A stretch of DNA of 64,000 bases from Eurosta solidaginis. Its lineage: Eukaryota; Arthropoda; Insecta; Diptera; Tephritidae. The notes beneath the pieces were generated by a model, which did no database searches, had not been told where the DNA came from, and saw only the letters and a list, made by a program, of their open reading frames with translations. The translations under genes were made by a program, and so were the position numbers. The stretch is taken from the NCBI RefSeq assembly GCF_040869045.1, contig NC_090323.1, forward strand, positions 168,972,083 through 169,036,082, in the 5' to 3' direction. Shown in pieces: positions 2,716 to 63,216 of the stretch; positions within the stretch are counted from its first letter, which is position 1, and each line of letters opens with the position of its first letter.

Positions 2716-3658
2716 TTAGGAAACGTAGGAATAAATTTTTACTAAATGAATTACAGAATATTATTGATACAATAACTTTAGGAAAATTAGGAATTTTGGA
2801 TCCAGCAATTTTACATTTAGATGAAATTAGAGACATTTTTGCAAACGAACATGGACGATTGAGTGTGGCAGATTTAATAGATATTTCTAATTTTAAAATA
2901 TTACAGAATAAAGATTTAATAGGTATTTATATTAGGTATCCAAAATTTTTTTAGATTGTAAATTTTACGAAGTAAGAGCAATAGCTAAGCAAGATGGTAA
3001 GTTATTTATCGAAAAAGAGATTGCAAAATGTGAGAATCAATATGTTAATGTTAAAAATTTTAAGAAAGAAATAGTGAATGTATATTGTGAAATAAAATCT
3101 TCAAATTCTTGTTCGGTGAATATTTTGTTAGGAAAAACGACTAGATGTATAAAAATTAAAGAAAGGAATAAAGAAATTGATGTAATAAAAGATGGTGTTA
3201 TTTTAGTTTCAGGATATCATACTGTTGACAATCATAATGTAAATGGAGTTTATCTCATAACTTTTAAAAATCAATCAAAGATTGACAATGTAACTTATGA
3301 GAACACATATGCAAATATATGGAAATATGTAAAAAATAATAAATACAGTAGCTTTGAAATTGTTAAATATATAGAATCTGAAGACTTAAATTTAAAATTT
3401 GAAAATATAAACTTTATTGATGTCATAAAAGGTGAAATAATATCAAAACCCATATTTTGGATAGGTTTAATAATAGTAACAGTTATATTTATGATAATAG
3501 TATTACTCAAAGCTGCTAATCAATACAAAATATTTAAGCAAAGAAAACAAACTGAAATTAATGAAAAGATATTTAAAAATTTAAGTTCTCAAATTGAAAT
3601 ATTAACTAATTCGCTGAATGAAACAAGGATGTTTCATCTGAAGAAAGGGGGAAGTTAA
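2716..3658 (+). pseudogene. env: Errantivirus env, C-terminal part, frameshifted
   Basis: The reading frame is open through 2954, is broken by a shift at a T-run near 2945-2952, and stays open from there to the stop at 3656-3658. The last 195 codons contain many Asn and Cys positions of an ectodomain, then one strong hydrophobic segment (start FWIGLIIVTVIF, about residues 129-150 of the last frame) and a short basic cytoplasmic tail with KQRKQ. This is the layout of the transmembrane half of errantiviral envelope proteins, which in infectious relatives mediate membrane fusion. Here the N-terminal part and furin region are absent, so no function is expected. The assignment is from layout plus the adjacent polypurine tract and LTR; a genuine host membrane protein is unlikely. 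Confidence 0.65.
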
Positions 3659-4130: not shown

Positions 4131-5462
4131 TTATTTGTTGTCTGTTGTACCTGTGTGATTAAGTTGTTTCCTGTAAACAAGTTTTAAAGGCTCGAATATT
4201 GTGTCAGAAATTGTGTTTATCTGTTCGTTTATTATTCTACCCTCGAATGTTTTTTGTTTGTAGATTTCCATGTTTTCGAGTACGTTGAGACGTCGGCCCT
4301 TTTCCTGTATGTGAAGAACCGTAACTGTTTTATTGATGTTTGCTGGGGAACATTCATTCTCGACCATGTGATTCGCGAAGTTAGACTCGAGTATAATGTT
4401 TGGATTCCGTATTTTTTTGTTGTAATCTCTAATATGTTCTCTGAACCTCGTTCTTATTTGCCGTCCTGTTTGTCCTATGTAACTATGCTGGCATCCGCAG
4501 GTAAGCTTGTATACGCCGTGGCTGCTAAACGGATCCTCTGAGTTAATGTTAGTTCTTAGTTTTCGCCCTAGATTGTTCGATGTTTTGAATGCTGTGTTAA
4601 TGTTGTATTTTTTAAAGAAGTTTGCCAATTTATATGTTGCTTTTCCAGTATATGTCATAGTCGTTCAGCTATTATTTTCCTTTTCATTATTTCTTTTTGG
4701 TTCTCCATTTGTCCTTCTGAGCTTATCTACTAGTGCTTTTTTATATCCGTTGTTTGCAGCGATATTATATATGACCTCAAGTTCTATCTTATATGCCTCT
4801 TGTGTAAGAGGTGTTCTTTCAAGTCTATGTACCAAGTGCCTTAATGCTGCATTTTTATGCTGTTGAGGGTGATTTGAGGTATTGTGTATTATTGTGTCGG
4901 TGGCCGTTGATTTTCTATATATGTCATAGTTAAATCTTTTGGCTTCTTTATCAATATTTATCGTGAGGTCTAGATAGTTTATTCCTTCGTCTTTTTCGGT
5001 TTCCATTGTAAATTTTATATTTCCGTGCTGCTTGTTGAGGTACTCCAGTACAAGCTCTTCGTTATTAGTAGTTAAAACGCATATTATGTCATCCACGTAT
5101 CTAGCATAAAATGACACGCCTAATTTGGACTTCAGCTCCTGTATGTACTTTTCTTCCAGATTTTGCATGAACACTTCCATAAGAATTGCTGATGTGGGGC
5201 TTCCCATTCCAAGACCGTTTGTTTGTCTATATATTTTATTGTTGAATTGAAAATAGTTTTGACGTAAAGTGGTTCTTAGCGTATTTGTGATTTGCATACT
5301 TTTCACTTTGTTTTTTGTGTTATGAACTATTGTTGAGCTAACTATGTCCAAAGTCTCCGATAGTGGTATAGATGGCTATAAATCTTTTATGTCAAAAGAT
5401 ACCAATTTGCTGTTTCTTGTTAGCTCAATATTATTGTTAGCTCGTATTAAGATAGGCATCCT
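4131..5462 (-). pseudogene. PLE polyprotein: reverse transcriptase plus GIY-YIG endonuclease
   Basis: One reading frame runs from about 5462 down to 4131, interrupted only by TAG at 5376-5378 and TGA at 4665-4667. RT motif A reads SFDIKDL-stop-PSIP (Tyr lost to the first stop), motif B is GLGMGSPTSAI and motif C is YARYVDDI. After the second stop comes the endonuclease: GVY at residues 48-50 and YIG at 60-62 of that segment, Arg71, FANH at 94-97 and a Glu in LENME (residue 128), matching the GIY-YIG fold of PLEs. In active elements the protein nicks target DNA and primes cDNA synthesis. The frame is otherwise intact, so the copy is a fairly young dead element. Alternative start codons inside are not meaningful. 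Confidence 0.88.
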
Positions 5463-7496: not shown

Positions 7497-9404
7497 TACA
7501 CTAAGTTGAGCAGAGCTCACAGAGTATATTAACTTTGATTGGATAACGGTTGGTTTTACAGGTATAAAGGAGTCGAGATAGATATATACTTCCATATATC
7601 AAAATCATCAGTATCGAAAAAAAATTTTATTAAGCCATGTCCGTCCGTCCGTCTGTCCGTCCGTCTGTCCGTTAACACGTTAACTTGAGTAAATTTTGAG
7701 GTATCTTGATGAAATTTGGTATGTAGATTCCTGGGCACATATCTCAGATCTCTATTTAAAATGAACGAAATCGGACTACAACCAAGCCCACTTTTTCGAT
7801 ATCGAAAATTTCGAAAAACCGAAAAAGTGTGATAATCATTACCAAAGACGGATAAAGCGATGAAACTTGGTAGGTGGGTTCACCTGATGACGCAAAATCG
7901 AAACTTAGTAAAATTTTGGACAAGGGCGTGGCACCGCCCACTTTTAAAAGAAGGTAATTTAAAAGTTTTGCAAGCTGTAATTTGGCAGTCGTTGAAGATA
8001 TCATCATGAAATTTAGCAGGAACGTTACTCCTATTACTATATGTGAGCTAAATAAAAATTAGCAAAATCGGAATGGCGAACACGCCCATTTAAAAAAAAA
8101 AAATTGTTTTAAAGTCAAATTTTAACAAAAAATTTAATATCTTTACAGTATATAAGTAAACTATGTCAACATTCAACTCCAGTAATGATATGGTGAAACA
8201 AAATGCAAAAATAAAAGAAAATTTCAAAATGGGCGTGGCTCCGCCCTTTTTCATTTAATTTGTCTAGGATACTTTTAATGCCATAAGTCGAACAAAAATT
8301 TACCAATCTTCGTGAAATTTGGTAGGGGCATAGATTCTATGAGGATAACTGTTTTTATACACAGTCGACCGCCTGTCCTTCCGTTCGGCCGTTAACACGA
8401 TAACCTTAGCCAAAATCGATATATCTTTACTAAACTTAGTTCACATACTTATCTGAACCCACTTTATCTTGCTATAAAAAATGGCCGAAATCCGACTATG
8501 ACCACGCCCACTTTTGCGATATCGAAAATTATGAAAAATGAAAAAAATGCCATTATTCTATACCAAATATGAAAAAAGGGATGAAACATGGTAATTGGAT
8601 TGGTTTAATGACGCAAAATTTAACTTTAGAAAAAACTTTGTAAAATGGGTGTGACACCTACCATATTAAGTAGAAGAAGATGAAAAATTCTGCAGGGCGA
8701 AATCAAAAGCCCTTGGAATCTTGGCAGGAATACCGTTCGTGGTATTACATATATAAATATAGCGGTACCCGACAGATGATGTTCTGGGTCACCCTGGTCC
8801 ACATTTTGGTCGATATCTCGAAAACGCCTTCACATAAACAACTAAGAGCCACTCCCTTTTAAACCCCTCATTAATACCTTTAATTTGATACCCATATCGT
8901 ACAAACGCATTCTAGAGTCACCCCGGTCCACCTTTATGGCGTTAACCTTTATGACGAACTAAGTCCCACTCGCTTTTAAAATACTCATTAACACCTTTCA
9001 TTTGATACCCACATCGTACAAATGCATTCTAGAGTCACCCCTGGTCCAACTTTATGGCGATATCCCGAAATGGCGTCCGCCTATAAAACTAGGGCCCACT
9101 CCCTTTTAAAATACTCATTAACACCTTTTATTTGATACCCGTATCGTACAAACGCATTCTAGAGTCACTCCTGGTCCATCTATATGGCGATATCCCGAAA
9201 TGGCGTCCACCTATAGAACTATGGCCCACTTCCTTTTAAAATACTCTTTAATACCTTCCATTTGGTACCCATGTCATACAAACACATTCCAGGGTTACCC
9301 TATGTTAATTTTCCTACATGGTTATTTTCCCTTATTTTGTCTCCAAAGCTCTCAGCTGAGTATGTAATGTTCGGTTACACCCGAACTTAGCCTTCCTTAC
9401 TTGT
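7497..9404 (+). mobile_element. DINE-like family A element, complete copy A2
   Basis: Starts with a palindromic 5' end (GTTGAGCAGAGCTCAC followed by GAGTATATTAAC), then a GTCC/GTCT microsatellite at about 7638-7672, the ACCGCCCAC and GGGCGTGGCTCCGCCC palindromic blocks, a short run of about 129-bp central repeats (8776-9300), and ends with the hairpin GTTCGG-TTACAC-CCGAAC and the terminus CCTTCCTTACTTG. No protein is encoded. This is the architecture of Drosophila DINE-1/HINE elements, which are non-autonomous Helitron/Helentron derivatives; the family name is inference. Both junctions sit in T-rich sequence of the degenerate tract it interrupts. Confidence 0.82.
8776..9300 (+). repeat. Central tandem repeats of A2, about four 129-bp units
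   Basis: Units share GTCACCCTGGTCCA, a TATGGCGATAT block, CACTCCCTTTTAAA, CATTAA-ACCTTT and ATTTGATACCCATATCGTAC. They are the same monomers that form the 6-kb array at 30808-36770 but here are few and more diverged. Confidence 0.8.
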
Positions 9405-17276: not shown

Positions 17277-18112
17277 TTATTTCTGAAAAATTCTTTCAGT
17301 CGTTTTAGTGCGTCCATTGGGGTTTGTCGATGCCGTTCTTTTTCTCGCAGATACTTTTAATTTCGCTTTATTTGGCCCATTCGATCCATCAACCTTTTCT
17401 TTTGACTTTCGTGGCCTTTGTCGAGTCTTCTCCACCATTACTCGATTACTACTGAACCCTTTCTCCAACTTGAAGTTAAGCGGTATATCCTGGTTCTCAT
17501 AACGCATCACTCTTCTCTGCATATCGATCTCGATGTCGTGGTCAACCAAGAAGTCCACTCCCAATATGAATTCCTCAACGATCTTCGCCACAACGAATTT
17601 GTGTAGAATCGTGACCTTTCCAATCAAGACTTCACATATCACTTCTCCCTGGACTTGGTTATACTCGCCAGTGACCGTACGCAACCTTGCTCCAGGTAAC
17701 GGTTTTACTCTCCTGTTGACCAAGTCAGATCGGATCAAGGAATGAGATGCGCCCGTATCTACAGTCAGTACACACTCCTTGCCATACACATTTCCTCTGA
17801 CGGTAATACTGCTTGATTTCGTTCCAATTTGCTACACAGATATCACAGGACATTCAATAGCCGGGGCAAGTTTTCGTTCTTTACATCCAACATGCTCTTG
17901 CTCATTTCCTCCAGCTTTGCGTTTACGGCCACCCACATTGTTGGAACTATTAGGACCAAGATCGCAATGACGTGCAATGTGACCGGGCATTTGAAGCATT
18001 TGATAACTCTTTCACTCCGCTTTTGCGATCCTTTCAGCGCCTCCAATATTGCGTCTACCCACTCTGGCCTTTCTATTTCCACACGGCGTGCTTTGAAAAC
18101 TGGCTTACTCAA
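17277..18112 (-). pseudogene. Nucleocapsid and aspartic protease part of gag-pol, frameshifted
   Basis: From 18112 the frame gives SKPVFKARRVEIERPEW and CFKC, the first half of a CCHC zinc knuckle, and then leaves frame right after CFKC. From 17789 a clean 170-codon frame carries the protease: VLTVDTGASHSLIRSDLV (catalytic DTGA), a beta-strand-rich middle and ILGVDFLVDHDIEID, the usual second half of retropepsin. The tail is basic and ends at the deletion point that removed RT. The protease would cleave Gag and Pol in particles. Frame breaks at about 17990 and 18110 mean no fused product can be made. Confidence 0.82.
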
Positions 18113-18996
18113 AGTGACGCTGTTTCTTGAGTCAGTGCATGGGATACCGTTTCTGCGAATGTGGGTTTTGGGTTTGCATATGTCGCTCGCTTCGTTTCTA
18201 CGTCCCGTATTCCATTTATAAAACTCTGGATTTTTACCCTCTCGGTGTACTCCACGGGTGCGTCCGCATTTGCCAAATGTGCCAACCTTTCAACATCCGA
18301 GGCAAACTCCTGCAAAGTCTCATTCGCTCTTTGGTGACGGTTTTGCAACTCAATTTGGAATATCTGTTTTCTATGCTCGCTTCCATAACGTCTCTCGACA
18401 GCGGCCATCAATGCTTCATAGCTGTTCCGTTCGTACTCTTGAATCGTCTGTAAGATTTTTGCGGCAGGCCCTTTCAATGCCACGAACAGAGCTGCAACTT
18501 TATCTTCAGCATTCCAGTTGTTCACTGCGGCGGTCTTCTCAAACTGTAGCTTAAAGACCTGGAAAGGAACAGAGCCGTCAAAAGATGGAGTTTTTACCTT
18601 CGGATTGCTTGCTGAAACTGCTGGGCAATTTAGTTGCAACTGCTCGATACGTCCTCTCAAGGCATCCACTTCGGCCTCGAATTTCTCCTCAAATATGTCT
18701 TTTGCTCTTCCAGTTGGGATGCCATATATGTCTTCTGCTCTTCCAGTTGTGATGACATATTTGTGGATATTTGTGATGACATTTCTGTTATACGTGTCTC
18801 TTGCGCTTAGCTGGGATGCCAATTGCGACGACATTGATGCTACTGTCGATGTCTGTGCAGATATTGCAGCCAATATCATGTTCAAGGCTGTGCTGGTAAC
18901 TGTCTGAGATGTTTCGTTTTTCTCTTCAATTTTTGTTGTCTCCTCGCCATCAAGATGAAAGACATACTCTTCCACGTTAATTCCCTCTAATTCCAT
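18109..18996 (-). CDS. gag: Gag protein, capsid part
   Basis: 295 codons from an ATG 160 bases inside the 5' LTR. The first 100 residues are low-complexity with Ser/Thr/Gln and a coiled-coil-like stretch (VDALRGRIEQLQL). The rest is the Ty3-type capsid: FDGSVPFQVFKLQFEKTAA, then VAALFVALKGPAAKILQTI, a RRYGSEHRKQIFQIEL block, TLQEFASDVERLAHLA and FINGIRD. Gag forms the virus-like particle that packages the RNA. The frame ends early at TGA 18109-18111; the zinc-knuckle part continues in a shifted frame from 18112, so a single small deletion has separated capsid from nucleocapsid. Confidence 0.88.
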   Translation of the reverse strand: MELEGINVEEYVFHLDGEETTKIEEKNETSQTVTSTALNMILAAISAQTSTVASMSSQLASQLSARDTYNRNVITNIHKYVITTGRAEDIYGIPTGRAKDIFEEKFEAEVDALRGRIEQLQLNCPAVSASNPKVKTPSFDGSVPFQVFKLQFEKTAAVNNWNAEDKVAALFVALKGPAAKILQTIQEYERNSYEALMAAVERRYGSEHRKQIFQIELQNRHQRANETLQEFASDVERLAHLANADAPVEYTERVKIQSFINGIRDVETKRATYANPKPTFAETVSHALTQETASL

Positions 18997-19157
18997 TGCC
19001 TCTGGTAGTCGTGCTGGAGTTCGAGTTTATTGCCGGTTGTATTCAATCCACGGCTGTCCAACTCCTTGTTCAGTTGCTGAATCTTTAATTCACTGAACTT
19101 TGCCATGTCCTTGTTGTCCTCTGGAATTTATTCAACAATTCCTCTTCTGACACCAAT

Positions 19158-30807: not shown

Positions 30808-33800
30808 GATGAAGTTCTGGGTCACCCTGGTCCACATTTTGGTCGATATCTGGAAAACGCCTTCACATATACAACTACCCCCACTCCCTTTTAAAAGCCT
30901 CATTAATACCTTTAATTTGATACCCATATCGTACAAACACATTCTAGAGTCACCCCTGGTCCACCTTTATGGCTATATCTCGAGAAGGCGTCCACCTATA
31001 GAACTAAGGCCCACTCCCTTTTAAAATACTCATTAATACCTTTTGTTTGATAACCATATTGTACACACGCCTTTATGCCGATATCTCGAAAAGGCGACCA
31101 CCTATACAACTACCACCACTCCCTTTTAAAACCCTCATTAATACCTTTAATTTGATACCCATATCGTACAAACGCATTCTAGAGTCACCCCTGGTCCACC
31201 TTTATGGCGATATCTCGAAAAGGCGTCCACCTATAGAACTAAGGCCCACTTCCTTTTAAAATGCTCATTAACCCCTTTCATTTGAAACCCATATCGTACA
31301 AACGCATTCTAGAGTCACCCCTGGTCCACCTTTATGCCGATATCTCGAAAAGGCGACCACCTATGCAATTACCACCACTCCCTTTTAAAACCCTCATTAA
31401 TACCTTTAATTTGATACCCATATCGTACAAACGCATTCTAGAGTCACCCCTGGTCCACCTTTATGGCGATATCTCGAAAAGGCGTCCACCTATAGAAATA
31501 AGGCCCACTCCCTTTTAAAATACTCATTTATACCTTTCGTTTGATACCCATATTGTACAAACGCATTCTAGAGTCAACCCTGGTCCATCTTTATGCCGAT
31601 ATCTCGAAAAGGCGACCACCTATACAACTACCACCACTCCCTTTTAAAACCCTCATTAATACCTTTAATTTGATACCGATATCGTACATACACATTCTAG
31701 GGTCACCCCTGGTCCACCTTTATGGCGATAAATCGAAACGGCGTCCACCTATGGAACTAAGGATCACTCCCTTTTAAAATACTCATTAACACCTTTCATT
31801 TGATATACATATCGCACAAACAAATTCTAGAGTCACCCCTGGTCCACCTTTATGCCGATATCTCGAAAAGGCGACCACCTATACAACTACCACCACTCCC
31901 TTTTAAAACCCTCATTAATACCTTTAATTTGATACCGATATCGTACAAACACATTCTAGGGTCACCCCTGGTCCACCTTTATGGCGATAACTCGAAACGG
32001 CGTCCACCTATGGAACTAAGGATCACTCCCTTTTAAAATACTCATTAACACTTTTCATTTGATATCCATATCGTACAAGCAAATTCTAGAGTCACCCCTG
32101 GTCCACCTTTATGGCGATATCTCGAAAAGGCGTCCACCTATAGAACTAAGGCCCATTCCCTTTTAAAATACTCATTTATACCTTTCGTTTGATACCCATA
32201 TTGTACAAACGCATTCTAGAGACACCCTTGGTCCATCTTTATGCCGATATCTCGAAAAGGCGACCACCTATACAACTACCACCACTCCCTTTTAAAACCC
32301 TCATTAATACCTTTAATTTGATACCGATATCGTACAAACACATTCTAGGGTCACCCCTGGTCCACCTTTATGGCGATAACTCGAAACGGCGTCCACCTAT
32401 GGAACTAAGGATCACTCCCTTTTAAAATACTCATTAACACCTTTCCTTTGATATCCATATCGTACAAACTAATTCTAGAGTCACCCCTGGTCCACCTTTA
32501 TGCCGATATCTCGAAAAGGCCACCACCTATGCAACTACCACCACTCCCTTTTAAAACCCTCATTAATACCTTTAATTTGATACCGATATCGTACAAACAC
32601 ATTCTAGAGTCACCCCTGGTCCACCTTTATGCCGATATCTCGAAAAGGCGGCCACCTATACAACTACCACCACTCCTTTTAAAACCCTCATTAATACCTT
32701 TAATTTGATACCGATATCGTACAAACACATTCTAGAGTCACCCCTGGTCCACCTTTATGGCGATATCTCGAAAAGGCGTCCACCTATAGAACTAAGCCCC
32801 ACGCCCTTTTAGAATACTCATTAACACCTTTCGTTTGCTACCCGTATTGTACAAACGCATTCTAGAGTCCCCCCTGGTCCACCTTTATGCCGATATCTCG
32901 AAAAGGCGGCCACCTATACAACTACCACCACTCCCTTTTAAAACCCTCATTAATACCTTTAATTTGATACCGATATCGTACAAACACATTCTAGAGTCAC
33001 CCCTGGTCCACCTTTATGGCGATATCTCGAAAAGGCCTCCACCTATAGAACTAAGCCCCACGCCCTTTTAGAATACTCATTAACACCTTTCGTTTGCTAC
33101 CCGTATTGTACAAACGCATTCTAGAGTCCCCCCTGGTCCACCTTTATGCGATATCTCGAAAAGGCGGCCACCTATACAACTACCACCACTCCCTTTTAAA
33201 ACCCTCATTAATACCTTTAATTTGATACCGATATCGTACAAACACATTCTAGAGTCACCCCTGGTCCACCTTTATGCCGATATCTCGAAAAGGCGGCCAC
33301 CTATACAACTACCACCACTCCTTTTAAAACCCTCATTAATACCTTTAATTTGATATCCGTATCGTACAAACACATTCTAGGGTCACCCCTGGTCCACCTT
33401 TATGGCGATATCTCGAAAAGGCGTCCACCTATAGAACTAGGCCCATGCCCTTTTAAAATACTCATTATCACCTTTCGTTTGATAGCCATATTGTACAAAC
33501 ACATTCTAGAGTCACCCCTGGTCCACCTTTATGCCCATATCTCGAAAAGGCGACCACCTGTGCAACTACCACCACTCCCTTTTAAAACCCTCATTAGTAC
33601 CTTTAATTTGATACCCATATCGTACAAACACATTCTAGAGTCACCCCTGGTCCACCTTTATGGCGATATCTCGAAAAGGCGTCCACCTATAGAACTAAGC
33701 CCCACGCCCTTTTAAAATACTCATTAACACCTTTCGTTTGATAGCCATATTGTACAAACACACTCTAGAGTCACCCCTGCTCCACCTTTATGCCGATATC

Positions 33801-36770
33801 TCGAAAAGACGACCACCTATGCAACTACCACCACTCCCTTTTAAAACCCTCATTAATACCTTTCGTTTGATACCCATATTGTACAAACGCATTCTGGAGT
33901 CCCCCTCGTCCACCTTTATGCCAATATCTCGAAAAGGCGACCACCTATACAACTACCACCACTCCCTTTTAAAAACCTCATTAATACCTTTAATTTGATA
34001 CCCATATCGTACAAACACATTCTAGGGTCACCCCTGGTCCACCTTTTTGGCGATATCTCGAAAAGGCGTCCACCTATAGAACTAAGCCCCACGCTCTTTT
34101 AAAATACTTATTAACACCTATCGTTTGATAGCCATATTGTACAAACACATTCTAGAGTCACCCCTGTCCACCTTTATGCCGATATCTCGAAAAGGCGACC
34201 ACCTATGCAACTACCACCACTCCCTTTTAAAACCCTCACTAATACCTTTAATTTGATACCCATATCGTACAAACACATTCTAGAGTCACCCCTGCTCCAC
34301 CTTTATGGCGATATCTCGAAAAGGCGGCCACCTATAGAACTAAGCCCCACGCCCTTTTAAAATACTCATTAACACCTTTCGTTTGATAGCCATATTGTAC
34401 AAACACATTCTAGAGTCACCCCTGGTCCACCTTTATGCCGATATCTCGAAAAGGCGACCACCTATGCAACTACCACCACTCCCTTTTAAAACCCTCATTA
34501 ATACCTTTAATTTGATACCCATATCGTACAAACACATTCTAGAGTCACCCCTGGTCCACCTTTATGGCGATATCTCGAAAAGGCGTCCACCAATAGAAGT
34601 AAGCCCCACGCCCTTTTAAAATACTCATTAACACCTTTCATTTGATACCCATATTGTACAAACGCATTCTAGAGTCACTCCTGGTCCACCTTTATGCCGA
34701 TATCTCGAAAAGGAGACCACCTATACAACTACCACCACTCCCTTTTAAAACCCTCATTAATACCTTTAATTTGATACCCATATCGTACAAACACATTCTA
34801 GGGTCACCCCTGGTCCACCTTTATGGCGATATCTCGAAAAGGCGTCCACCTATAGAACTAAGCCCCACGCCCTTTTAAAATACTCATTAACACCTTTCGT
34901 TTGATAGCCATATTGTACAAACAAATTCTAGGGTCACCCCTGTCCACCTTTATGCCGATATCTCGAAAAGGCGACCACCTATGCAACTACCACCACTCCC
35001 TTTTAAAACCCTCACTAATACCTTTAATTTGATACCCATATCGTACAAACACATTCTAGAGTCACCCCTGGTCCACCTTTATGGCGATATCTCGAAAAGG
35101 CGTCCACCTATAGAACTAAGCCCCACGCCCTTTTAAAATACTCATTAACACCTTTCGTTTGATAGCCGTATTGTACAAACACATTCTAGAGTCACCCCTG
35201 GTCCACCTTTATGCCGATATCTCGAAAAGGCGACCACCTATGCAACTACCACCACTCCCTTTTAAAACCCTCATTAATACCTTTAATTTGATACCCATAT
35301 CGTACAAACACATTCTAGAGTCACCCCTGGTCCACCTTTATGGCGATATGTCGAAAAGGCGTCCACCTGTAGAACTAAACCCCACGCCTTTTTGAAATAC
35401 TCATTAACACCTTTCGTTTCATACCCATATTGTATAAACGCATTCTAGAGTCACTCCTGGTCCACCTTTATGCCGATATCTCGAAAAGGCGACCACCTAT
35501 ACAACTACCACCACTCCCTTTTAAAACCCTCATTAACACCTTTTATTTGATACACATATTGTACAAACACATTCTGGAGTCACCTCCGGTCCACCTTTTT
35601 GGCGATATGTCGAAAAGGCGTCCACCTGTAGAACTAAACCCCACGCCTTTTTGAAATACTCATTAACACCTTTCGTTTCATACCCATATTGTACAAACGC
35701 ATTCTAGAGTCACTCCTGGTCCACCTTTATGCCGATATCTCGAAAAGGCGACCACCTATACAACTACCACCACTCCCTTTTAAAACCCTCATTAACACCT
35801 TTTATTTGATAGCCATATTGTACAAACACATTCTAGAGTCACTCCTGTTCCATCTATATGGCGATATCCCGAAATGGCGACCACCTATACAACTACCACC
35901 ACTCCTTTTTAAAACCCTTATTAATACCTTTAATTTGATACCCATATTGTACAAACGCATTCTAGAGTCCCCCCCCCCCCCCGGTCCACCTTTTTGGCGA
36001 TATTTCGAAAAGGCGTCCACCTATAGAACTAAGGCCCACTCCCTTTTAAAATGTTCATTAACCCCTTTCATTTCATACCCATATCGTACAAACAAATTCT
36101 AGGGTCACCCCTGGTCCACCTTTATGGCGATATCTCGAAACGGCGTACACCTATGGAACTAAGGATCACTCCCTTTTAAAATACTCATTAACACCTTTCA
36201 TTTGATTTCCATATGGCACAAACAAATTCTAGAGTCAACCCTGATTCACCTTTATGGCGATATCCCTAAATGCTGTCCACCTATAGAACTATGGCCCACT
36301 CCCTCTTGAAATACTCTTTAATACCTTTCATTTGATACCCATATTGTACAAACGCATTCTAGAGTCCCCCCCCCTCCGGTCCACCTTTTTGGCGATATTT
36401 CGAAAAGGCGTCCACCTATAGAACTAAGGCCCACTCCCTTTTAAAATGTTCATTAACCCCTTTCATTTCATACCCATATCGTACAAACAAATTCTAGGGT
36501 CACCCCTGGTCCACCTTTATGGCGATATCTCGAAACGGCGTACACCTATGGAACTAAGGATCACTCCCTTTTAAAATACTCATTAACACCTTTCATTTGA
36601 TTTCCATATGGCACAAACAAATTCTAGAGTCAACCCTGATTCACCTTTATGGCGATATCCCTAAATGCTGTCCACCTATAGAACTATGGCCCACTCCCTC
36701 TTGAAATACTCTTTAATACCTTTCATTTGATACACATGTCTTACAAACACATTCCAGGGTTACCCTCGGC
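30808..36770 (+). repeat. 129-bp satellite-like array with 259-bp higher-order unit
   Basis: About 46 monomers by length divided by period. Each has CACCCCTGGTCCACCTTTAT, GCGATATCTCGAAAAGGCG, CACCTAT, ACTCCCTTTTAAAA, TCATTAA-ACCTTT and ATTTGATACCCATATCGTAC. Two monomer types alternate: one with ACAACTACCACCACTCCC and AACCCTCATTAATACC, the other with GAACTAAGSCCCAC and AATACTCATTAACACC, so the repeat is a 259-bp dimer through most of the array. The many 70-86-codon open frames that recur at 259-base steps are produced by the repeat and are not genes. Outer monomers are most diverged, as expected for unequal exchange. Confidence 0.93.
35930..36735 (+). repeat. Recent three-monomer duplication with poly-C tracts
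   Basis: The segment from about 35943 recurs with an offset of 395 bases (GGTCCACCTTTTTGGCGATA at 35983 and 36378), nearly identical over three monomers. Each copy is preceded by a C-run, about 16 C at 35969-35982 and CCCCCCCCCTCC at 36365-36376, which is not seen elsewhere in the array. Confidence 0.8.
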
Positions 36771-58349: not shown

Positions 58350-58584
58350 ATACCCAGGGTGTAATTGTGCACAAGGGTATTATAACTTTGATTGGATAAC
58401 GGTTGTATTAATGGCATAAAGTAAGCCGAGATATATATAGACTTCCTTATATCAAAAATTTAGTCCATCTATCCGTTCCATAGCTTGATTAAATCTTAGA
58501 TATCTATACGAAATTTGCTATATTATTGCCTTATCTAAACCCAGAATAGATGGGACAAAGAGTACGTTATATGTATGTATGTAT
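58350..58584 (+). mobile_element. Old family A relative (A6), left part
   Basis: Palindromic start TATACCCAGGGTGTAATTGT ... AAGGGTATTATAACTTTGAT, then GGATAACGGTTGTATTAATG, ATATATAGACTTCCTTATAT and AGATATCTATACGAAATTTG, all diverged from family A. It is cut by the TIR transposon at 58585 and continues at 62119. Confidence 0.65.
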
Positions 58585-59035
58585 TAGGGCGGGTTGATTT
58601 AAAAATCGCTCATTGCTCTGTGAAAATCGTATTCTAGGGATCAAAATAAGAAAATTTGCCGAAGGAACCATACCTCTAAAACCAATTTGGGTCGAACTTT
58701 TGGGTAGGGGCAAATTTTGAAAAATCCCACTTTGACCCATTTAGAGTGCTCCAATCGAGTCCAAATGTATGACCGACCCCCACTAACTTTGGAGGCCCGA
58801 CCCACTGATGCCAGTGCCACACCCCCTGGAACTTCCCTGGGGGTTCACCATACAAACATTTCAAAAAATCGCCGGTTTTGCACTTTACATGAAAAAATCA
58901 GCGAAATGCCTATGTTTTTTCTTTATTTTTATTTATTTATTTATAATAATATTTATTATTTATTTATAATAATATCTATTTTTTCTCTTCAGAAATTTAT
59001 TTAGTCTGAACATATGTAAATGAAAAAAATAATTT
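58585..59035 (+). repeat. Left TIR of the 3.5-kb transposon
   Basis: Matches the complement of 61682-62118 through GTGAAAATCGTATTCTAGGG, CACTTTGACCCATTTAGAGT, GTATGACCGACCCCCACTAA and CGCCGGTTTTGCACTTTACA. Relative to the right arm it lacks about 20 bases (GAATTCTGGTGTCCCCC) near 58680. Its inner end contains repeated AATAAA (minus strand, 58925-58985), usable as polyadenylation signals for the gene. Confidence 0.92.
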
Positions 59036-59066
59036 AAGTGAGTTATAGAAAAGAAACTAAAAAAAA

Positions 59067-61281
59067 TTAATGTTCGAAGTCTTTTTTACTTTCAAGTCTG
59101 GGCAATTTCGTACGGCTCTCTAATGTCGTCGCCATAACAGCCTCTACATTTTCCGGTATAACCCGTTTGGAACCGCTAGCTAGCAATTGAACATGTCGCT
59201 CCGTTCCTTGTATGTGTGATGGAATTTTTGGATCATTAAACGGTGGATCATCTTGATTTAAATATTCTTTCAATGTATCGTACGGAATGCTTCGCGTGAA
59301 TGGTGGTTCAAATACGATATTTATATCATTCAAATTGATAGTTTCCGTATAACTTGTGCAATTAAAGTTTATATCTGGTTTTTTATAAACTCTAAGTTCC
59401 ATTGGCTCGTCAACATCGGTTCGATAGCGTAGAATTTTCTTGATGGCACAGTCGCGCTTTTCTTTGCTATCATCAAACAACATTGATAACAAGATATTTT
59501 CCGAATGCGCATAATATGAATTATCTTTAATTACTTGATTAACAATTTTGCGTAAATGAGGTTCTAGAAATCGTGACCAACCAATGAACTTGAAAAATAA
59601 TGCACTGCCGTACACGACAGAGCTGTAATACTTGATATCGAAGTACATTGGCACATAACATTTAATTATAAATTCAACCAGAATTCTTAAATTTGCATAT
59701 GGACTTTCCGTTGTCCGTAGAGAATGTACAATTTTCCCTGGTTTGATGTTAGCCAGATCCACCGGAACCACGCCGCTAGAAATTGCATGGGCCATGTCGT
59801 ATAAGTACTTCGAATCGGTGGAAAATTCAATTTTTTCTGGAGCAGGGGGCATATTTTGCAACTCAATTTTCTGGAAGCTGTCCACCACCTGAAAATATAT
59901 AATAATAAAATAATTAAAAATGGTTGACAATTATAATAAATGAGTGATAGCAATAACTTACCGGAAGAGTTTAACAAGTTTCGATTTGACGGCTCAGTTT
60001 TCCGGTTGCCGATCTTGGTCGAGCGCTGGTTGATTTATCCAAAGCTTCAAACAAATGCCGAAACGGAAGTTCGTTGAAGTATAGAAGGCAAACGAACCAA
60101 TGCAATGGTCTTTTTAACGGCAATTCGAATCGTCGTATAATTCCACCGTGTGGGCCAGTGTTTGTTGGCTCACCGTCAGTGCATATTTCAATTAATGCAT
60201 TCAGTGATATATTTTTATCGTTGAAAAAACCATTTAATTTGGTTGTTTTTTATTCAGCGGTTTCATGTTCTAGTCTTACGTAACCAATCAATTCCGAATT
60301 GGGTTCTCTCAAAATAACAAGATGAGGTTCTTTTACCATCCTAGTATGATACTTCTCATCAATTTTATCTATCGTTAAAGTATCATCTTTTCTGCCATCG
60401 AATGAAAACGCTAACAAATTGGTATCATCTAACCGTTTGCGAAGCAGTTCTTGTCTGAATTTCTCTTTTTCTCTGCGAACTTTCGATTTATCCATGATGA
60501 GGGGTTTCCCATGCTTATCTTTAATTTTAAAATCTTGCAAAAGAGCGGTTCCCAATGCTGATGCTACTCTGTCAGGCACACCAAATCTGTCACATACCAA
60601 GGCAAAGTTAAAACAATCGTATCTCTCTGTGTATTGTGAACTTGTGCTTCTATCCATATCTTCTTGAACCGGTGACGGTGCGTATGTTGAATCATCGGAA
60701 TCTTGGTATGTTGGCATTGATGACATAGACGTTACTCCTTGCTCTTCAGTTTCCATCATAAATACATCCATTGTTAGTCTTCTCTGATAATGTTGATCGT
60801 GCATGAACTCTTTGAGGCGTTCGGGAACCCAGCCGCACGCACATGGAGCTGCCTTCAAATCGCATTTACATGCTCCAATGTAAGATATAGTTTCCAGAGA
60901 TTTTACATACTCTGTAAATTGTTGGGTGTTGTTTCTTCTCTTGATTTGCTCTTGATACTTGTCAAGCAATTTATTCAATTTATTAAATACACTTTTTTTC
61001 AGCATTATTTCCCTACCAAGTTTTTCCCAAATTCCAATCAACGTATCTTGTACTTGAATAGTGAATGATTTATGGGAAAACTTTTTTTGTTCTGTTTTAG
61101 CACGTTCGCTTAAGTAAAAATAATATCTCAAGATATCCAGATGGGTTGGTAAATTAAGATCAGTTAAATCAGTAGACACACCAAAAACAGTAACATCATG
61201 CTTGGGTATATGACTCATTGGGTTTTCGATATTTGTTGATGGAGTTGCTTCATCTTGCGGTGTAGAGGATGGTGGATTCAT
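59067..61281 (-). pseudogene. Transposase-like protein, two exons, two nonsense codons, superfamily unassigned
   Basis: Exon 1 runs from ATG 61281 to 59962 (440 codons). A 73-bp intron follows (59961-59889; donor CCG|GTAAGT, acceptor TTTTCAG|GTGG, phase 0). Exon 2 is 59888-59067, with 273 residues. Exon 1 is interrupted by TAA at 60250-60252 (codon 344) and TAA at 59971-59973 (codon 437), otherwise open. Residues 138-149 form ACKCDLKAAPCACG, a CxC-x6-CxC zinc-binding-like cluster; LLAFSFDGRKDDTL (Asp295) and ICTDGEPTNTG (Asp369) look like two acidic positions of an RNase H-fold nuclease; RPLHWFVCLLYFNELPFRHL (392-410, with Glu404) follows and could hold the third. The pattern FDGRKD ... TDG--NTG ... 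HWF-C--H-NELP-RHL recalls a protein family dispersed in insects and cnidarians. Its function as a transposase is inferred from position between TIRs. Confidence 0.82.
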
Positions 61282-61403
61282 TGTAAACTTTTTGATTTGG
61301 AATGGTCACTTCACTTATTTTTTTTGAAATATTTTTTTATCTGAAATTAGCTCTTCACACTTTGAGTTCTTCACAACGACTTAATGCATTCACAAAAACT
61401 GTT

Positions 61404-61416
61404 GCGTTATATATGG
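61404..61416 (-). promoter_or_regulatory. Candidate TATA box of the transposase-like gene
   Basis: The minus strand reads CCATATATAACGC, about 125-135 bases upstream of the ATG at 61281 and inside the element but outside the TIR. It is the only good TATA-like string in the leader. The start site is unknown. Confidence 0.35.
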
Positions 61417-61681
61417 TCTACGAGACGAGGTAATAAGAATGAAATGGTAATTTCAATTCTACCTGCTGTGTCTTGTGGTGGCTTAAAAAAAACACAAGCA
61501 ATTTTACGATCTGCAATTGTGTCACAGTGATACCTTCATTTTTTAAAACGGTTGAATAAAAAATCCACACAACTACATATGTTTACGACAAGCAAATGCA
61601 TCACAGTGATGCCTTGGTTTTAAAAGGGTTATAAAAACGCTAATTTCTAATAATTTTTTTTTAATTTCTTTTCTATTACTA

Positions 61682-62118
61682 AGTTAAATTCATTTTTTCA
61701 TTTACATATGTTCTGACTAAATAAATTTCTAAAGAGAAAATAAACTCCAAAAAGAAAAAACATAGGCATTTCGCTGATTTTTTCATGTAAAGTGCAAAAC
61801 CGGCGATTTTTTTGAAATGTTTGTATGGTGAACCCCCAGGGGGTTCCAGGGGGTGTGCCACTGGCATCGGTGGGTCGGGCCTCCAAAGTTAGTGGGGGTC
61901 GGTCATACATTTGGACTCGATTAGAGCACTCTAAATGGGTCAAAGTGGGATTTTTCAAAATTTGTCCCTACCCAAAAGTTCGACCCAAATTGGGGGACAC
62001 CAGAATTCGTTTTAGAGGTATATTTCCTTCGGCAAAGTTTCTTATTTTGATCCCTAGAATATGATTTTCACAGAGCAATGGGCGATTTTTTTGCCTCCCC
62101 ACAAATCAACCCGGCCTA
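61682..62118 (-). repeat. Right TIR of the 3.5-kb transposon
   Basis: Complement of the left arm with scattered differences; includes CCCCCAGGGGGTTCCAGGGG and CAAATTGGGGGACACCAGAA, the latter partly missing on the left. Confidence 0.92.
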
Positions 62119-63216
62119 GTATGTATATATGTGTATATATGTATCGAGAAGTGAAAAAAGGTTCGAAATATGCTTCGAGTCAGCTAACTGTGTAAAATGG
62201 ATCCCTAGATTAAAAAGAAAACTAAACGAAATTAAATGAAAAAGATTGGATCAATAAATAGTATATTCTATTCCGATCGACACTCGCAATAGGGCGGATA
62301 GATAGATAGATTTTAATTTTTGCAAGCCGTGAATATAAATCCGTCGAAGGTATCATGTTGAAGTCTTAGATTGATATGGTCCTTGCTACTTTATACATTT
62401 TGTAAAAAATTACAACGACGACCACGCCCTCTTTAAAAAGAAAATCTATATCGAATATGCGGGTTGAAAATTGATCAAGTTTGGAAAACAGGTGTGGCAT
62501 CACTTGTATTTAAAAGAAGAAAAATTAGGTATAATTTTTTTTGTAATACTACGGACTCATTCAGTCTATGTAAGGTCCTCATGGACCGGCCAGTTTAACC
62601 TAACCTAAGGCTTATTTTACAAAAAAAAACAATATTTATACGGTATTTAACCTCAGAAGTGATATTGTGGAAGTAGTACGAAAATTCAAAATTACTAGGA
62701 AATGGGCGTTGCCCCGCCTAATTTTATATAATTTCTCAATAATACTATTGATGCCATAAACCGAAAAAAATCGACAAATCCTAACGAAATTTGATAATGT
62801 CATTGCTTTTTCGACTGTACTTGTCTTGTTGTTAACTCTTAAATAAATGAAATCAAATCAAATGGGTGAAATTGGTTGGACAGCACGCCCACTTTCTACA
62901 CCTATCCTTGCGTCCGTTAGATAACACGATAACTTAAGCAAAAATGTATACATATTCTTCAAATTTAGTATTGAAAATGGTTGAAAACAGATTATAACCA
63001 CGCCCACTTTTTAGATATTGAAAATTTTTTAAAATAGAAGAACTGGCACAATACATAAACAAATACTTATAAAGTGGTGAAACTTTAGTGAATTAAACTC
63101 ATATCATTAATTGTTCATGACATTTCTCTTTAAATGTGTCCTTTATAAATATGAGAGCACATAGCAGGGTATATAATTTTCGATTTCGTGCGAACTTACA
63201 CTTCTCTACTTGTTTA
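62119..63216 (+). mobile_element. Old family A relative (A6), right part
   Basis: Diverged blocks in family A order: TTTTTGCAAGCCGTGAATAT, GACCACGCCCTCTTTAAAAA, GGGCGTTGCCCCGCC, ATAACACGATAACTTAAGC, AACCACGCCCACTTTTTAGA, and a poor 3' terminus CTTCTCTACTTGTTTA. It is interrupted by a short LINE tail at 62545-62616. Confidence 0.6.
62545..62616 (+). mobile_element. Isolated LINE 3' tail (same LINE as 37170-37812)
   Basis: AATACTACGGACTCATTCAG, CATGGACCGGCCAGTTTAAC and CTAACCTAAG reproduce the last 70 bases of the LINE at 37735-37812. It is an extremely 5'-truncated insertion. Confidence 0.8.

Follow-up and report, generated by a model that had tools for sequence, protein, structure and literature searches.

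Within a 64 000-nucleotide window of the Eurosta solidaginis genome (contig NC_090323.1), which is the whole stretch analysed here, positions 58585-62118 hold a 3,534-bp element that we read, with a probability of about 85%, as a dead copy of an autonomous cut-and-paste DNA transposon from a divergent hAT-like lineage of the C/DxxH class. The wording "divergent hAT-like" is chosen because the family is hAT-like in its working while its sequence stands apart from Hermes-type hAT. Judged from a predicted model, the enzyme appears to fold like hAT transposases, and the family may represent a distinct, so far undescribed branch of this transposon type.

The element is bounded by terminal inverted repeats (TIRs), of 482 bp on the left (58585-59066, plus strand), beginning TAGGGCGGGTTGATTT, and of 464 bp on the right (61655-62118, minus strand), whose inward reading is TAGGCCGGGTTGATTT. 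Aligned to each other they give 412 matches and 19 mismatches (95.6% ungapped identity), with seven gap runs over 84 columns; an AT-rich stretch of ~50 bp occurs in the left repeat only. A preliminary description made from the letters alone had proposed a DNA transposon with very long TIRs, and the repeats bear this out, although they are somewhat longer than its figure of about 440 bp. The element termini are TAGGGCGGG and TAGGCCGGG. When the window was scanned with TAGGGCGGGTTGATTT at up to 3 mismatches, both ends were found together with one extra match at 60021 (3 mismatches); shuffled sequence gave a mean of 0.49 matches and reached three in 0 of 100 shuffles. Self-comparison of the window revealed no second copy of the element within it.

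The element is inserted in sequence rich in TATG. If the termini are TAGG...CCTA, the candidate target duplication is either the 8-bp GTATGTAT (58577-58584 and 62119-62126, both plus strand) or the 4-bp GTAT, and if GG...CC are taken as termini a 2-bp TA duplication fits too. The length is thus ambiguous (8, 4 or 2 bp), because a single copy was read and it sits inside a TATG microsatellite. Against the hAT terminal consensus YARNG, which a literature search did not confirm, the left end (TAGGG) agrees and the right end (TAGGC) differs at the fifth base. Directly inside the right TIR lies a direct repeat (61503-61562 and 61582-61637, 76.7% over 60 columns), which could represent subterminal binding sites or chance.

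The transposase gene lies on the minus strand, its two exons jointly comprising 713 codons, 2 of them stops. Exon 1 of this broken gene (59962-61281, residues 1-440) holds both in-frame stops and encodes an N-terminal helical domain with a CxC-x6-CxC cluster, then an RNase H core containing the CxxH site and the first two acidic residues, both Asp. A 73-bp phase 0 intron follows (59889-59961, GTAAGT...CAG), and exon 2 (59067-59888) encodes a helical insertion domain and a last helix with the catalytic-type Glu. The motifs reported earlier (CxC-x6-CxC, DGRKD, TDGE and HWF-C...NELP-RHL) were all found in the two-exon protein, and residues 280-420, singled out for structure prediction, correspond to the first part of the modelled RNase H domain. 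We consider the window copy dead because of the two in-frame stops, the replacement of the CxxH His by Tyr, and the loss from exon 2 of 12 residues, among them an Arg-Trp present in relatives. All three faults are absent from the Rhagoletis zephyria protein P0001, the representative of a cluster of 80 sequences, which is 95.5% identical to the window protein over 638 aligned residues and whose gene model has a shorter C-terminus.

Relatives were gathered from one search (41) and from a profile search (the best 120 of 136 used), giving 128 distinct proteins, for a minority of which the organism was stated. Named dipteran sources are flies, midges and mosquitoes (Rhagoletis, Bactrocera, Musca, Contarinia, Wyeomyia), and the others are the moth Diatraea, the beetle Brassicogethes, the psyllid Diaphorina and the thrips Frankliniella. 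The expectation of uncharacterised relatives in insects and cnidarians held for the insects, but no cnidarian appeared among the named matches (120 of 136 listed). Labels are uncharacterised, unnamed or hypothetical, except for a thrips protein called "MAU2-like" (P0038). One relative of 863 residues (P0028) has an OTU cysteine-protease-like domain at its N-terminus, ahead of the transposase; apart from that OTU domain, no precomputed Pfam domains are listed on the relatives. A Wyeomyia mosquito protein is nearer the Rhagoletis element than is a Bactrocera protein (P0016 and P0004 vs P0001), a grouping for which horizontal transfer or old paralogous lineages are possible explanations.

An alignment of 66 of the 128 relatives (A2) was compared with Pfam at E up to 5, and no transposase family was among the best 25 of 50 families; an NCBIfam search gave no relevant match. 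The earlier view of the transposase as unassigned agrees with both libraries. The family is unnamed in Pfam, NCBIfam and our literature searches, while Repbase and Dfam, which lay outside the search, may well hold it. With no name in the profile libraries searched, a transposase family so widespread in insects would have its copies, along with any small non-autonomous derivatives, left unclassified in fly genomes.

Conservation was counted by placing the 128 relatives on one of them, P0003, whose numbering is used here, and counting only rows that cover each column. The acidic residues are kept at D296 (111/111), D372 (121/121) and E683 (62/64, the others being one D and one K), CxxH at C401 (122/122) and H404 (121/122), RW at R498 (76/78) and W499 (77/78), and H678 in all 65 covering rows; in the N-terminal cluster, each Cys is conserved in 90-93 rows. 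The two Asp are 76 residues apart, and 311 residues separate D372 from E683, unlike Tc1/mariner, where the second Asp is a short distance from the last D/E.

The predicted P0003 model has an RNase H DDE core into which an all-helical domain is inserted, after the second Asp and before the Glu, and its top match by VIA is Hermes, with the insertion domain within the aligned range. CxxH, RW and a C-terminal ER are common to the family and Hermes. In a hAT profile of 43 Hermes-type proteins (from 65 matches, covering only the Hermes branch of hAT), D180, D248, C265, H268, R318, W319 and E572 are kept in at least 90% of the 43 rows. The preliminary description had set hAT aside; given the predicted fold, CxxH, RW, the distant final E, the helical insertion and the VIA ranking, that was too soon.

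We put close to even chances, though somewhat short of them, on the family branching deeply within the hAT superfamily, where it would be classed once further intermediates come to light. The structural match and shared residues favour this, as do the possible 8-bp duplication and the likeness of the TAGGG end to YARNG. So does a forced end-to-end profile alignment that placed four of the seven key residues (D296, C401, H404 and E683) on their Hermes counterparts, with D372 off by one and RW unaligned. Masking the key columns did not lower the score (P 0.054-0.056), and when both profiles were masked E683 alone of the seven held its exact place, on E572. Several points weigh on the other side. 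The A2 profile has no significant similarity to the 43 Hermes-type proteins (probability 0.5-0.9%, P 0.06-0.11), and a single Hermes sequence scored against the family profile gave P 0.27, with reversed and three shuffled controls at P 0.17-0.7. Spacing differs from Hermes, being 98 residues vs 54 from the C of CxxH to W and 184 vs 253 from W to E. The hAT dimerisation domain PF05699 was not among the best 25 of 50 Pfam families for the 66 members, where an unseen match would need E above ~0.08 in a single member; nor was it found in five family members at E up to 1, with a Hermes control at 4.1e-25. The lack of precomputed Pfam domains on listed relatives, the one OTU excepted, points the same way. 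No Pfam match to a BED finger was found in the family, which says little either way, since Hermes's own BED reaches only 0.0013, below the cut-off. The window element also differs from hAT in its very long TIRs (seen in one copy), and one subclade of the family in having a shared intron. The family is therefore described as hAT-like in working; membership is not established because the sequence and profile test against Hermes-type hAT failed.

It is unlikely that the family belongs to another superfamily of the C/DxxH class (P, Kolobok, MuDR or Dada) or to Novosib, with an entry of that name in Repbase. In favour of this reading, Foldseek with the model matched ISCth4 (1.2e-5), a bacterial element of the IS256 type and a relative of the MuDR type (for part of this, see PMC10045372). 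It also matched the transposase of the P element (1.4e-3), which is not among the 50 VIA rows listed. The family resembles the P element superfamily in its C/DxxH class, long insertion and possible 8-bp duplication, and the P element also in having an intron that, if retained, would cut the enzyme short. However, ISCth4 aligns fewer residues than Hermes, which stands ahead by ~4 Z units in VIA, and no THAP or other P-type Pfam domain, nor any Kolobok match, was among the best 25 of 50 families for the 66 members. Matches to MuDR, Dada, Novosib, Sola and Zator were likewise absent from those 25, no dedicated profile alignment having been made. ISCth4 is described as a copy-out/paste-in element (PMC7780238). 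The C/DxxH signature shared with Kolobok is common to the whole superfamily class (PMC9587614). Kolobok targets TTAA (PMC9587614), which is absent from the flanks of the window copy, so the Kolobok-like option raised earlier is not supported by this copy. Placing the family among hAT and the remaining CxxH families would help to resolve how eukaryotic transposases are related at deep levels.

A domesticated host gene caught between repeats by chance is highly improbable: several relatives are annotated in NCBI as host genes (LOC names) and one carries the OTU domain, but the window gene is framed by 464-482-bp TIRs, P0001 represents 80 clustered sequences (a count not per genome), and the window copy is decaying.

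The intron of this putative transposon can be followed in the relatives. Matching to P0003 ceases within residues 437-452, the donor site of the window gene, in 51 of 128 relatives (among them P0120, whose gene model is partial). Of the remainder, 71 continue across the point, 1 begins there and 5 fall outside these classes. In 25 tails examined, Val, as a GT codon would encode, comes right after the last shared residues. Because 51 relatives end at the junction, and because the Rhagoletis gene model P0001 spans it as predicted, we take the intron to be real, as first proposed. On a FastTree tree of 111 relatives the intron state required 4 changes; when the labels were shuffled 200 times, the mean was 34.9 and the minimum 26. 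Eight gene models were coded as unknown and P0120 as intron-bearing; the gene models P0038, P0054 and P0067 were coded intron-free with some uncertainty, and P0034, also coded intron-free, seems to carry the intron read in frame. With only 4 changes on the tree, the intron was gained once or a few times, within a subclade in which all the named members are dipteran. It lies between CxxH and RW, and its retention would yield a ~450-residue protein that keeps the N-terminal domain and the two Asp but lacks RW and the Glu. In the P element, retention of an intron truncates the enzyme and gives a repressor; by analogy, we hypothesize that the intron-retained protein here acts as one. A shared intron that halves the enzyme gives a second and independent opportunity to test whether splicing can act as a transposon switch.

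Window residues 1-170, modelled with a 57-row alignment (predicted local distance difference test 85.9, predicted template-modelling score 0.77), form helices and a CxC-x6-CxC turn, and no significant match to this model was found among solved structures. From its pattern and position we infer that the domain binds zinc and DNA. During transposition it would bind the TIRs, and the two Asp with the distant Glu would coordinate metal ions and cleave both ends. By analogy with Hermes, CxxH and the Trp that follows it may aid a flanking-strand hairpin during excision; the freed ends would then attack a staggered target, probably leaving an 8-bp duplication. This scheme starts from the observed ends, gene, signature and fold model of a relative, with nicking, hairpin and strand transfer modelled on Hermes and Kat1. 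For these two, nicking, hairpin formation and staggered strand transfer are described in PMC4763223, according to which the Kat1 counterpart of the hairpin-aiding Trp is not essential.

A bolder proposal, which we make tentatively and hold to be doubtful as a whole, is an undescribed eukaryotic DDE superfamily occurring in five or more orders of insects. It would combine a catalytic fold like that of hAT, a new N-terminal domain of zinc type that binds DNA, TIRs of ~460-480 bp (one copy) and, in one subclade with dipteran named members, a single shared intron between CxxH and RW. Retention of this intron would give a ready-made repressor that arose independently of the P element's third intron.

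Elsewhere in the window, a tandem satellite with units of ~130 bp occupies 30821-36765 and also shows a 259-bp period (22 copies over 31070-36765), with related units at about 8782-9300 and 45.7-46.6 kb. Retrotransposon remains comprise a reading frame at 2936-3655 (plus strand) matching a Pfam Gypsy protein (E 9.5e-12), a reverse transcriptase fragment at 4668-5375 (minus strand; RVT_1, E 1.2e-8), and fragments of gag and aspartyl protease at 17280-19026 (minus strand).
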